Below, piece after piece: positions 4,831 to 33,323 of a stretch of 35,306 nt of DNA. Both the position numbers and the translations under genes were made by a program. The stretch's first letter is position 1. Every line of letters starts with the position of its first letter. Source of the DNA: Smithella sp. (lineage in GTDB: Bacteria; Desulfobacterota; Syntrophia; Syntrophales; Smithellaceae); the NCBI GenBank assembly GCA_030018675.1, contig JASEHT010000005.1:1-35306 (forward strand). The letters run 5' to 3'. The notes under the pieces are model-generated. The model ran no database searches and was not told the origin of the DNA. It saw only the letters and a list, made by a program, of their open reading frames with translations.

Positions 4831-6531
4831 ATGGCAGACACACCTCAACAGTTGAAAGCGATTAACATCCTTGTTCATCTGCATAAAGCTGCAAAACTTG
4901 TTCGGCCCGTCAACCACACCATTATATATTCCATCGAAATGATCTGTCTTCACCTTCTGGAAACATTGCGTCAAAACTCTCCTGCCGCGTTTGCTCAACT
5001 GGAAAAAGAACTTCTTTCAGGGGAAAATTTTGCCGTTTCTAATGAAGATGGCGCAATTTCATTTTCAGATCTACTGGATGTGATTCTTGCCCTCGATATG
5101 ACGACCATCTCCTTCGATAAAAACTTGCAACGAGAAGAATGGAGCATTTTGATAAATCTCCCCGCAAAAAATCCACAGCCGGCATACGAAGAACCGGCAA
5201 TTCATGAACTCGTTGAGGAATTGAAAACAGATCAACCTCCGGAAATTGTCGATGAGGATAAGCCACCGTCCTACGAGAAATTACCTTTAGTCAATGAGCA
5301 AACTCCTGAGCCGCTGGCGTCAGAAAGAAAAGTCGATGCGCGCATTGATGAACCGCTACAGTTGAAAAGTGAGATTGATGAACCCGTTCAGCCACTTCCT
5401 CAGGATCCCGAACGGGAACAGATTCAGCAAGAGATTCACGAAGAGATTCAGGAGCAGGTGCCTGTTTCTGAATCTCAAGACGGGAAAAATCAGCTTTATG
5501 AAGATCTTGCGATGATGGAAAAAGTATTCACCCGTCTGAATGCGTTGGATGGAGCCATCGAAGCTATTCCTTCACCCGAGCAGGTGGATATGATGAACAG
5601 ATTGTCAGCCAAAACGGCGGAGTGGTTGGAGACGCAGACCGCCTTGACGCCCGAATACAAAGAAATTTGTCTGCGCTTGCAAGCGCTTATTAAGCATTTT
5701 ATCAGCAACAGATATTTTGCCGAGGCGGTTCCGCTGGTCGGTGTTTTTGGAAAAATCAGCAGTGGTGTGCTGAAAAAAGGTGATAAAATACGGGAGTTTT
5801 CTTTGGAGGTACTCCGCAATCTGGCAACGGATAACAACATCAACATCCTATTCAAAGAAATCAACGGCAATGATAAGAATAAAAAATTTCAGGCCGGTCA
5901 GGTATTTTCCGGATTCGGAAATGTAATCATCAATAAATTGCTCACGGTTCTTCAGAACGCCAATGACAGCAAAGTGCGAATAGGTATTCTTCATATCATT
6001 CAAGAGATGGGACAGGCAGCCATGCCGGCCATCAAGTCAAGCATTAATAATTACGCTCCCTGGTATTATTTACGCAACATGGCCTATTTGCTCGGTCGTA
6101 TCGGTGACGAAAACACCGCCGATGTTCTCGTGCCACTGCTGTTGCATAAGGAAAGACGGGTGCGCATGGAAGCATTCAAGAGCATAAGCCAGACCGGAGG
6201 GAGCAGGCGGGGGCCTTTGCTTCTATCGGCGCTCCCGGATGCGGATACGGAACTGCGGATGAATATCATTGAAATACTCGGTAAAATTCGATACGCAGAT
6301 GCGGTGCCGGATTTACAGGATATGCTCAAGGCAAAGACTTCGTTATCGAAGGATGATCAAATATCTTTACAGGAAAAAATTTGCAAGGCGCTCGGAGCGA
6401 TCGGTTCCGCCGAGGCGATAAAAACCCTTTCGGAAGTTGCCGAATCGAAATCTTTTCTGGGAATTGCCTCTTATCCCAAGGAAGTTAAGTATGCTGCCCA
6501 ACGGGCGCTGGAATTCATTAAGAGAAAATAA
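4831..6531 (+). CDS. HEAT-repeat protein with acidic linker
   Basis: A 566-aa protein with no signal peptide. The N-terminal ~115 residues form a helical domain (INILVHLHKAAKLVRPVNHT). Residues ~120-215 are a Pro/Glu/Gln-rich, probably disordered linker. The second half is an alpha-solenoid with HEAT or PBS-lyase-like repeats: RIGILHIIQEMGQAAMPAIK, then YLRNMAYLLGRIGDENTADV and RVRMEAFKSISQTGG, LRMNIIEILGKIRYADAVPD, and AAQRALEFIKRK at the end. Such proteins are protein-binding scaffolds, and in Deltaproteobacteria they often accompany signalling systems. No enzyme motif is visible. The ATG is supported by CGGGAG seven bases upstream. The gene stands alone, divergent from the zinc-ribbon/TPR gene. 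Confidence 0.8.
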   Translation: MADTPQQLKAINILVHLHKAAKLVRPVNHTIIYSIEMICLHLLETLRQNSPAAFAQLEKELLSGENFAVSNEDGAISFSDLLDVILALDMTTISFDKNLQREEWSILINLPAKNPQPAYEEPAIHELVEELKTDQPPEIVDEDKPPSYEKLPLVNEQTPEPLASERKVDARIDEPLQLKSEIDEPVQPLPQDPEREQIQQEIHEEIQEQVPVSESQDGKNQLYEDLAMMEKVFTRLNALDGAIEAIPSPEQVDMMNRLSAKTAEWLETQTALTPEYKEICLRLQALIKHFISNRYFAEAVPLVGVFGKISSGVLKKGDKIREFSLEVLRNLATDNNINILFKEINGNDKNKKFQAGQVFSGFGNVIINKLLTVLQNANDSKVRIGILHIIQEMGQAAMPAIKSSINNYAPWYYLRNMAYLLGRIGDENTADVLVPLLLHKERRVRMEAFKSISQTGGSRRGPLLLSALPDADTELRMNIIEILGKIRYADAVPDLQDMLKAKTSLSKDDQISLQEKICKALGAIGSAEAIKTLSEVAESKSFLGIASYPKEVKYAAQRALEFIKRK

Positions 6532-30515: not shown

Positions 30516-30809
30516 ATGAAAATGTTCATGGTTTTGTATTCCGAAGCATCCGATGAGATGATTCTTGACGCTTTCAAAAAGTCGGGATTCAAGGCGTACA
30601 CCAAAATGTGCGGCTTGATGGGCGAAGGCGAGGAAACCGAACCGAAATTGGGCACGCACTGCTGGCCGGGCAATAACAATGCTCTGCTGCTGGCGGTGAG
30701 CGATGAGAAAATTCAGACAATGTGCGACCTGGTGAAGAAATTAAAGGAGGAAAATCCCCGCGCGGGTTTGAGGGCGTTTACGTTTCCGCTCGAAGAGGAA
30801 TGCGTTTGA
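30516..30809 (+). CDS. PII-like protein linked to the RND pump
   Basis: A 97-aa protein with a ferredoxin-like fold pattern (MKMFMVLYSEASDEMILDAF, then THCWPGNNNALLLAVSDEKI and LKKLKEENPRAGLRAFTFPLE). It resembles the PII-like groups found next to RND efflux genes rather than classical GlnB: the T-loop tyrosine and the ATP-site motifs of GlnB are missing. Four cysteines (residues 32, 49, 69 and 96) are unusual for its size. A role as a small trimeric sensor modulating the pump is an inference. The start is supported by GAGG seven bases before ATG. It lies 54 bases after the pump gene as the last gene of the operon. Confidence 0.6.
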   Translation: MKMFMVLYSEASDEMILDAFKKSGFKAYTKMCGLMGEGEETEPKLGTHCWPGNNNALLLAVSDEKIQTMCDLVKKLKEENPRAGLRAFTFPLEEECV

Positions 30810-30904: not shown

Positions 30905-32215
30905 TCAATCCATGTGCTCGAACGATGAAGCGGCGGGCTGCTTACCCAGAAGAACCATTCCGAAATGTTCGTATTTTTCGCCGGTCTTCGGGTGAATGTC
31001 ATGCCAGCGCGCGAGAAATTCCCGTTCACGCAGCCAGGTGCGCCGCACGGAGGAAGGATCTTCAAAAAGCAGCATACCCTTGTTCAGCCCGATGATAATC
31101 GCGTAATGACCATTTTCCCAGTTGCGCCGCCAGTCGTCCAGCGTCATGATGCGGTCGGCCCACGCCTGCAAAAGAACAATCACCGGTGTTCCTTCGTCCA
31201 CGTGCTGTTTGACCTGCTTGAGCGACCAGTTGGTGCCGGAGTTCACGGCGAAACCGTACTGTTTGGCCACCCTGATCACATCTTCAGGCGGCGTGCCTTC
31301 TTCGGTGGTTCCCAGCGCCGCAATCAGTTCGTCGTGGCCGACATCTTCCCCGTAATAATGCATGACGGTTTGCAGCGCTCTCGGGCCGCAGTCATAATTG
31401 TAGAGTTGCGTGCCGGTATGCAGGTTGATCATTTTTATTTTACGTGATTCATCGAGAAATTGAACGGTTTGAACCAGCGACTCGGCAAAAGCGCGGCGCA
31501 GCCGGTTGATCTGGGTGATGTCCGGCGTTCCGTCCTCATTTCTGAATAAACGTTCGTTGGTTTCCTGAATGAAAGCGGGAGTCCGCGCGCCGATGCGTTT
31601 GATATCGTTTACGCAGTGCGCGGCGCACACGTGGCCATGGACTTTAAAGTATTCGGATTCGTTGACGGTGACCAGAACGTCGGGCAGGCGGCTGCGGAGT
31701 TCCTCGGCGTATGTTTCCACAATAATATCGGGGCAATAATAAAGAGGTTTTTCATCACGGTCCGTCTGTTGAAAATTCATCAGTTCGATTTGATTTTCCC
31801 CCACGCCACGGGCGGTGACGGTGGAATGTCCGTCCAGCAGAAGTCCCGCCCCGGCGGCAATGGCTTCTTCTATCCGGCGATGGAACGGTTTGAGATATTT
31901 GTCGGACAAGCCTTTGCGCATGGCTTTCGTGGGTTCGAAGCCCGGCCGGTATACATTGCGGCCGTGAATGTCCACGAGGGGCACACATTGTTCGATGTCG
32001 TCGGGATCGCGATTGGCCTCGAGCAAAATGCTGCAATAAGGGAATGTAATCTGACGGTTGCCCAGAATATCGCGGAAGTCGTAAAGCCAGTGGGTGTACC
32101 AGTCGATATTTTTCAGCAGCGCAGGAAAATCCCCTGAAAGATCATCCAGAAAAATTTCAGCCGGAACAGTGATTCCGCTGTGCGGAACAACAACCAGAAT
32201 ATCGGATCCGTTCAT
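30905..32215 (-). CDS. N-formylglutamate amidohydrolase fused to C39 peptidase-like domain
   Basis: A 436-aa fusion when started at MNGSDILVVVPHSG, which has AAGGA nine bases upstream; the ORF track start 17 residues earlier has no good site. Residues ~1-250 match the N-formylglutamate amidohydrolase family: VVPHSG, LLEANRDPDDIEQCVPLVD, GLLLDGHSTVTARG and TPAFIQETNERLFRNEDG. Residues ~265-430 look like a papain-fold C39-type peptidase domain: YNYDCGPRALQTVMHYYGED (Cys276), NGHYAIIIGL (His370) and LLFEDPSS (Asp386), the expected triad order. There is no signal peptide and no transmembrane segment, so it is probably cytoplasmic. The combination suggests coupled amide-bond hydrolysis on a formyl- or acyl-peptide-like substrate; this is inference. 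Confidence 0.8.
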   Translation of the reverse strand: MNGSDILVVVPHSGITVPAEIFLDDLSGDFPALLKNIDWYTHWLYDFRDILGNRQITFPYCSILLEANRDPDDIEQCVPLVDIHGRNVYRPGFEPTKAMRKGLSDKYLKPFHRRIEEAIAAGAGLLLDGHSTVTARGVGENQIELMNFQQTDRDEKPLYYCPDIIVETYAEELRSRLPDVLVTVNESEYFKVHGHVCAAHCVNDIKRIGARTPAFIQETNERLFRNEDGTPDITQINRLRRAFAESLVQTVQFLDESRKIKMINLHTGTQLYNYDCGPRALQTVMHYYGEDVGHDELIAALGTTEEGTPPEDVIRVAKQYGFAVNSGTNWSLKQVKQHVDEGTPVIVLLQAWADRIMTLDDWRRNWENGHYAIIIGLNKGMLLFEDPSSVRRTWLREREFLARWHDIHPKTGEKYEHFGMVLLGKQPAASSFEHMD

Positions 32216-32420: not shown

Positions 32421-33206
32421 TTAGCGCCGACGGGGCGGAGGCGGCGCGTAACCGTCGTTTTCCCAAAGCCGGTTGTAGGAATAATCGCAGGTTCCGCAGC
32501 AAGGGATGATGTTCATTTTGCAGAGGGTTTTCCGCCATTCATACTTGATCAGAATGGATTCCACGGCTTTCTTTTCGGGATCGAATTGGACGCTGTAGGA
32601 AGGCGAATATTCTTCCCGGCCGTAGCCGGTGCCGGCGCTTTCCGAAGCCCTGGATTTATCCTGAAGGGAAGGCGCCGGTTTATCCCGTAGTAATTCGTTT
32701 GGAGACCTGAAGACGGAGTCATTCCGAATAGGCTGGGGACGCTGAATTTCCGGGAAAACGGCGAGGGCAATCACGCCCATGGCGGATTCATCGCCGAAAG
32801 CGGCGGCGTAAGAATCGGGGACATCGGTAAAATAAAAGCGGTTGACCTTGTCCTGAGCGCTGCGCCATCCGGAAAATTCGTTCGTGGAATAGGGATCGAT
32901 GACGTACATTCTTTCCGTATTTTTCAGCCAGGATTTCTTGCCGGAGATGATGTTTCTTCCATCAACCGCAATCACCACGCCGACCCGGCGGTTGAGCTTG
33001 TTGCGCACCACAATCCGGTAATGGTCGCCTTTGACGGCTTCGGCATACACTTTTTTGAGATCGTGTCGGACCTTGGCCGTATAAAAAGGGATCGACCTGC
33101 CGTTATCAGTCACAACGCTTACGTCTAGGGCATCGCCGATGGTGGCCGCCGCGCTGAGCCCTGCCCACATCAATACAATCAAACACACGGATAATAATTT
33201 TTTCAT
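32421..33206 (-). CDS. Exported protein of unknown function, likely ECF target
   Basis: A 261-aa secreted protein when started at MKKLLSVCLIVLMWAGLSAA, which has a perfect AAGGAGG site; the ORF track start is 29 residues too early. A signal peptide (1-20) precedes a ~130-residue conserved-looking domain: YAEAVKGDHYRIVVRNKLNR, VVIAVDGRNIISGKKSWLKN, and VNRFYFTDVPDSYAAAFGDE. After this comes a Pro/Ser/Arg-rich linker and a C-terminal part with MNIIPCCGTCDYSYNRLWEN and a PPPPRRR tail. I do not recognise the family. Its promoter matches the sigma-E type, and the divergent neighbour is an ECF sigma factor, so it is probably induced by envelope stress. Confidence 0.75.
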   Translation of the reverse strand: MKKLLSVCLIVLMWAGLSAAATIGDALDVSVVTDNGRSIPFYTAKVRHDLKKVYAEAVKGDHYRIVVRNKLNRRVGVVIAVDGRNIISGKKSWLKNTERMYVIDPYSTNEFSGWRSAQDKVNRFYFTDVPDSYAAAFGDESAMGVIALAVFPEIQRPQPIRNDSVFRSPNELLRDKPAPSLQDKSRASESAGTGYGREEYSPSYSVQFDPEKKAVESILIKYEWRKTLCKMNIIPCCGTCDYSYNRLWENDGYAPPPPRRR

Positions 33207-33252
33207 AGTTTCCTCCTTGGGATTTTGTCGGCTTTTGATTGCCGTTTGCCTT

Positions 33253-33282
33253 TTAGACAAAATCAACGGCAAAAAAGTTCCC
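33253..33282 (-). promoter_or_regulatory. Sigma-E-type (ECF) promoter of the exported protein gene
   Basis: Minus-strand GGGAACTT (33275-33282), a 16-base spacer, then GTCTAA (33253-33258). This matches the GGAACTT-N16-GTCTAA form of RpoE-type promoters. The start near 33246 leaves a leader of ~40 bases to the ATG at 33206. Confidence 0.7.
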
Positions 33283-33323
33283 GATTTTTTCATAGACTTT
33301 ATTGTGGCATAGGGCCGGAGGAC

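Follow-up and report, generated by a model that had tools for sequence, protein, structure and literature searches.

The window analysed here is a stretch of 35,306 nucleotides from Smithella sp. (contig JASEHT010000005.1, positions 1 to 35,306), and its reverse strand carries a complete gene at 30905..32215 (436 aa, stop codon at 30905-30907) in which two types of amide hydrolase are joined. The encoded protein consists of an N-terminal FGase domain (PF05013) and a C-terminal Peptidase_C39 domain (PF03412), both scoring above their Pfam cut-offs, which bears out an earlier note, made from the sequence alone, that one ORF unites an amidohydrolase half with a C39 half. The start codon is the ATG at 32215 (MNGSDIL), which is conserved among the homologues; the ORF extends 17 codons further upstream (to 32266), and this extension is not conserved in them. 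The two domains meet at residues 259-262 (31430..31441, reverse strand), the same place where the FGase gene stops and the C39 gene starts in five relatives carrying the two as separate genes (L018, L054, L067, L068 and L069). No signal peptide or other export signal was found in the fused protein, Pfam and NCBIfam revealed no ABC transporter domains in it, and there is no ABC exporter gene among its close neighbours, so that the earlier description of a cytoplasmic protein apart from any ABC exporter holds. Upstream on the same strand lies a gene for a predicted secreted protein (32421-33293; 290 aa, fewer if the likely internal start is used), which matches no Pfam or NCBIfam family and was not found beside other copies of the fused gene. 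An RND efflux operon occupies about 23.4-30.5 kb, and immediately downstream of it, at 30516-30809, a small PII-like protein of the transporter-associated PG0541 family is encoded (NCBIfam 2.7e-22).

A scan with one query sequence across 84,980 genomes gave 20 loci, and 17 of these hold the whole fusion with no internal stop. The 17 full-length homologues come from independent contigs of Smithellaceae and Syntrophaceae MAGs and share 70-80% identity. In pairwise comparisons the FGase half gave dN/dS values of 0.03-0.11 and the C39 half values of 0.05-0.12, hence both halves are retained under strong purifying selection. Together the independent contigs and the dN/dS values rule out an assembly or frame artefact, and the fusion is genuine. 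A plasmid search gave no match, nor did PADLOC, and with the latter result the idea of an anti-phage defence system was dropped.

The FGase-type half (residues 1-258; 31442..32215, reverse strand) was assigned as a HutG-like zinc amidohydrolase domain of the M14 fold. PF05013 matched residues 5-186 with 56.4 bits against a cut-off of 28.9 (6.1e-15), and a profile-profile comparison placed this half with ordinary FGases at 98.2% probability. We aligned it with two HutG proteins encoded in hut operons (L110 and L111) and three ordinary FGases. Pro11, His12, Pro18, Asp38, an acidic residue at 66, Arg69, His112, Asp128 and His130 were common to all rows, as were Asn185, His200 and Glu218, and the positions His12, Glu66, His130 and Glu218 of the fused protein match the metal-site and catalytic positions of HutG. 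By analogy to the M14-like fold we expect the zinc to be bound by His12, Glu66 and His130, with Glu218 acting as catalytic acid/base. The codons of the putative ligands lie on the reverse strand at 32180..32182 (His12, in a PHSG motif, invariant in the family, in ordinary FGases and in HutG), 32018..32020 (Glu66, E or D in all rows) and 31826..31828 (His130, in a DGHS motif, invariant), and that of the putative catalytic Glu218, in an invariant QETN motif, at 31562..31564.

With HutG, the N-formylglutamate amidohydrolase (PF05013, TIGR02017), this half thus shares the fold family, the PHxG, E/D-x-NR and DxHS motifs and the catalytic Glu. It is nevertheless only 22-24% identical to HutG and the ordinary FGases, it is fused to or paired with a C39 domain, and no hut genes are found near the fused gene. 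Both arginines of the HutG loop NGRFKGGxTTRHYG, which presumably bind substrate carboxylates, are absent, with Ser/Glu and Ala in their place. The TIGR02017 score was 47.1 bits against a curated cut-off of 278.75, that is 231 bits below it, and together with the missing arginines this excludes membership in HutG. As the metal and catalytic positions are kept while the loop arginines and the HutG score fail, the FGase half is likely an active zinc amidohydrolase, although N-formylglutamate is probably not its substrate. The earlier proposal of N-formyl amino acids as the substrates of this half is for the same reasons not upheld. A role in hydrolysing N-formylated peptides or amino acids would agree with the FGase family membership and the conserved metal and catalytic positions, but in view of the lacking HutG-specific arginines and the low HutG score we regard this as highly unlikely.

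The C-terminal half (residues 263-436; 30908..31429, reverse strand) is a papain-like cysteine hydrolase domain of the C39 type. PF03412 matched residues 270-406 with 50.2 bits against a cut-off of 22 (3e-13). An AlphaFold model of this half alone, built with 37 aligned sequences, had a mean pLDDT of 93.6, and Foldseek matched it to the ComA peptidase domain (3k8u) at 7e-8 with a TMt of 0.82. The structural check suggested beforehand thus covers the C39 half; the full-length model of the fused protein reached a pLDDT of 41 and was unusable. The triad proposed in the earlier note was correctly numbered and its codons were verified: the nucleophile Cys276 (31388..31390), the catalytic His370 (31106..31108) and the catalytic Asp386 (31058..31060), all on the reverse strand and invariant in all homologues. 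They fall on the catalytic residues of the ComA peptidase domain in the 3k8u/5xe8 alignment, Cys276 also aligns with the Cys of the LahT peptidase domain, and the His-Asp spacing of 16 residues is the same as in ComA. The likewise invariant Gln270 (31406..31408, reverse strand) occupies the oxyanion-hole position six residues before the Cys. In LahT the corresponding residues are Gln21, Cys27, His101 and Asp117 (PMC6363468), and both the Gln-Cys spacing of 6 and the His-Asp spacing of 16 equal those of the C39 half.

The fold, the Gln-Cys-His-Asp set and its spacings are hence those of the C39 peptidases of ABC exporters (ComA, LahT, PCAT1). Those of the bacteriocin/AMS type are, however, fused to a transporter and act on a double-glycine leader, neither of which applies to the fused protein, and they differ from it by its cytoplasmic fusion to a zinc hydrolase and by its additional QAW...W..GHY and RWHD segments. 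The segments QAW...W..GHY..IG...FEDP...RWHD mark a subfamily, which we refer to as the RWHD type.

PeiR, ComA, PCAT1 and LahT were near-top Foldseek matches of the C39-half model (TM by target of at most 0.83). PeiR, a pseudomurein endoisopeptidase, was the top match both in the PDB sequence search and in Foldseek (TM 0.67-0.68), and this raises the question of whether the protein breaks down isopeptide-linked peptides, of the cell-wall type or others, in the cytoplasm, its C39 half acting as an endoisopeptidase and its zinc half, like MpaA, as a peptide amidase. Phage versions of the C39 domain are common and the weak PHROG matches are phage endolysins, in line with such a role. PeiR is itself a phage lysin acting on methanogen cell walls, though; it is only 22% identical to the C39 half and no closer to it than ComA, and as neither a signal peptide, a wall-binding domain nor murein-recycling neighbours were found, we consider this explanation quite unlikely.

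It is not certain that the C39 half is a hydrolase, because C39-like folds also include acyltransferases such as BtrH and CtaG. The BtrH acyltransferase and phytochelatin synthase are among the C39-like domains of the same cluster (PMC10318531), and CtaG and proteins of the AziU complex are among the Foldseek matches at lower rank. Further, a split C39 protein weakly matches the Pfam family BtrH_N, and in one genome the C39 gene overlaps a gene for an EamA transporter. The C39 half might accordingly be an acyl- or amino-acyl-transferase that makes a conjugate in small-molecule biosynthesis, the zinc half trimming or deblocking the donor or the product. Peptidases nevertheless rank first for the C39 half in Pfam, NCBIfam, the PDB sequence search and Foldseek. 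The conserved neighbours include no gene for a carrier protein, a ligase or an NRPS, and a transferase therefore seems fairly unlikely.

The search for homologues and their neighbours that the earlier note called for also showed that the fusion is one form of a wider association. In a Neomarinimicrobiota MAG (L018) a stop codon lies exactly at the domain junction and is followed by an ATG (...GGAATT TAA CCC ATG ATT AAT...), and FGase and C39 are here two genes. Further loci were detected with a profile built from the FGase half (A2). Among the 245 genomes of that phylum it revealed one more split pair (L054, with a 4-bp overlap) and four fusions (L055-L058), while the Syntrophales contributed the split pairs L067, L068 (4-bp overlap) and L069 and an FGase gene standing alone (L070). 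Where the start is clear the two genes are spaced by -4 to +3 bp (L018, L054 and L068, also L067 and L069). The genome with the lone FGase gene (G665) has a C39 gene as well, on a different contig and unlinked, and it is this C39 gene that overlaps the EamA transporter gene. Overall the C39 partner was present in all eight tested genomes with a full FGase partner (E <= 2.3e-83) and in none of the three tested genomes without one. Within the Smithellaceae 21 of 51 genomes carry the full-length fusion and two more carry it interrupted by contig ends; in the genus of the source genome it occurs in 1 of 17 genomes, the source genome only.

The FGase and C39 trees each require two switches between the fused and the split state, with the fused groups forming two separate clades, and would fit either two fusions or an old fusion followed by a split. 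Judged from the genomes, the strict pairing of FGase and C39 in different lineages, be it as a fusion, as neighbours or as unlinked genes, demonstrates a functional coupling of the predicted zinc and cysteine activities. As relatives carry both as neighbouring genes, the two very probably cooperate.

We detected no conserved larger operon around the fused or split genes, as the neighbours vary in every lineage. About half of the Smithellaceae loci are adjoined by a divergently oriented MFS gene from the group of lactate/oxalate-formate transporters. It is located upstream of the fused gene in L004-L010, L013, L014 and L020, and where both starts are cleanly annotated the intergenic stretch measures about 183-189 bp and contains a common TACAAT/TAGAAT-like box. 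Since this neighbour is confined to that clade and missing beside the gene at 30905-32215, it was rejected as a functional partner and appears to be inherited synteny. A decayed copy of the fused gene was seen beside this same MFS gene in genome G340 (L118:4300-4560), where about the first 34 family codons are left and no C39 remains in the genome.

RWHD-type C39 domains also occur without an FGase partner. Other Desulfobacterota have them in exported proteins that resemble lipoproteins (L025 and L026), and Smithellaceae have cytoplasmic members. In two Smithellaceae loci (L112 and L113) the immediate convergent neighbour of the RWHD-type C39 gene encodes an AstE/aspartoacylase-like protein. 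These proteins match PF24827 at 7e-5 and 1.4e-4, slightly under the curated cut-off, and conserve the HxxE, HE and TETP motifs. The 735-kb phage LR756501 encodes a homologue 2.9 kb away from its C39 gene, and some IMG/VR contigs hold AstE-like genes within 6 kb of C39 (L108/L172, L162/L197, L176 and, more weakly, L177). Members of this AstE-like subfamily near RWHD-type C39 were located at L112:4395-5180, L113:3168-3935, L051:8430-9254 and L197:5953-6777. Among the 50,697 phage records of INPHARED the AstE-like and C39 queries each matched three records, the identical three, but these are among the largest genomes of the collection and genome size is a confounder that favours co-occurrence. 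No RWHD-type C39 was seen at the fetched loci of AstE-like matches elsewhere in the phylum, and the FGase profile gave no match in viral contigs and viral ORFs. AstE and FGase are both zinc N-acyl-amino-acid hydrolases and presumably share one fold, yet profile comparison gave no link between the FGase half and the AstE-like proteins, and none of the loci seen had the latter fused to C39.

The viral contigs of IMG/VR further contained RWHD-type C39 in unexpected fusions. It makes up the C-terminal end of portal proteins of phages (PF04860 + C39_2; L165:4489-6534 and L192:2323-4449) and is joined to MuF-like head proteins (PF04233; L164:4123-6540 and L167:4531-6549), with an intein-like insert carrying a LAGLIDADG domain in L164. 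Two tandem C39 paralogues lie on one viral contig (L173:4486-5100 and 5878-6492).

For these phage proteins, with C39 attached to portal and MuF head proteins, a processing or delivered role is plausible. By extension the C39 half of the fused protein could process or regulate another protein or the attached zinc half, the fusion merely securing co-expression. That in bacteria C39 is strictly paired with zinc hydrolases, even where the genes are unlinked, fits better with sequential chemistry, and no conserved cleavage target is encoded nearby; we hold this explanation to be decidedly improbable.

Since FGase and AstE are hydrolases of the same kind, the common denominator is an RWHD-type C39 together with a zinc N-acyl-amino-acid hydrolase. 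One may speculate, with considerable doubt, that the two constitute an unrecognised two-enzyme module that strips a covalent acyl or peptide modification from metabolites or proteins, with the FGase type in Syntrophales and Neomarinimicrobiota and the AstE type in other bacteria and in huge phages, which would have their own version.

For the fused protein itself we tentatively favour, at somewhat less than an even chance, a cytoplasmic bifunctional two-step amide hydrolase in which the C39 half cuts a peptide or isopeptide bond and the zinc half removes an acyl cap. The C39 domain, with its Gln-Cys-His-Asp set, would make this cut in a small peptide or conjugate blocked by an acyl group, and the leftover N-acyl-amino-acid would then be hydrolysed by the FGase-type domain, both steps running on one protein; the reverse order is possible. 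That both halves act on one substrate, the order of the steps, and the nature of the substrate as an N-acylated or isopeptide-linked amino-acid conjugate are what we infer from the domains and their pairing. The protein would thereby resemble the combined action of an acylpeptide hydrolase and an aminoacylase, brought together in one polypeptide. The recurrence of a zinc N-acyl-amino-acid hydrolase, FGase or AstE-like, as partner of RWHD-type C39 speaks for the two-step hydrolase, while the lack of a conserved operon pointing to a pathway speaks against it. The earlier note had suggested a two-step hydrolase for formylated or otherwise blocked peptides. The split gene pairs support the coupled two steps, whereas formylated peptides are merely one of several possible substrates.

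The FGase and C39 domain families are already known, but a literature search, with coverage that lacked most subscription journals, found no earlier description of their fusion, of the conserved split gene pair or of the AstE-like variant. Unrelated zinc and cysteine amide hydrolases are here kept together, by fusion, in an operon or as an unlinked pair, in uncultured syntrophic bacteria, and they point to a reaction of two steps that is as yet uncharacterised. With the split gene pairs the two-step hypothesis can be tested directly. Huge phages combine RWHD-type C39 with a different zinc N-acyl-amino-acid hydrolase, which suggests that this chemistry reaches beyond one bacterial family.
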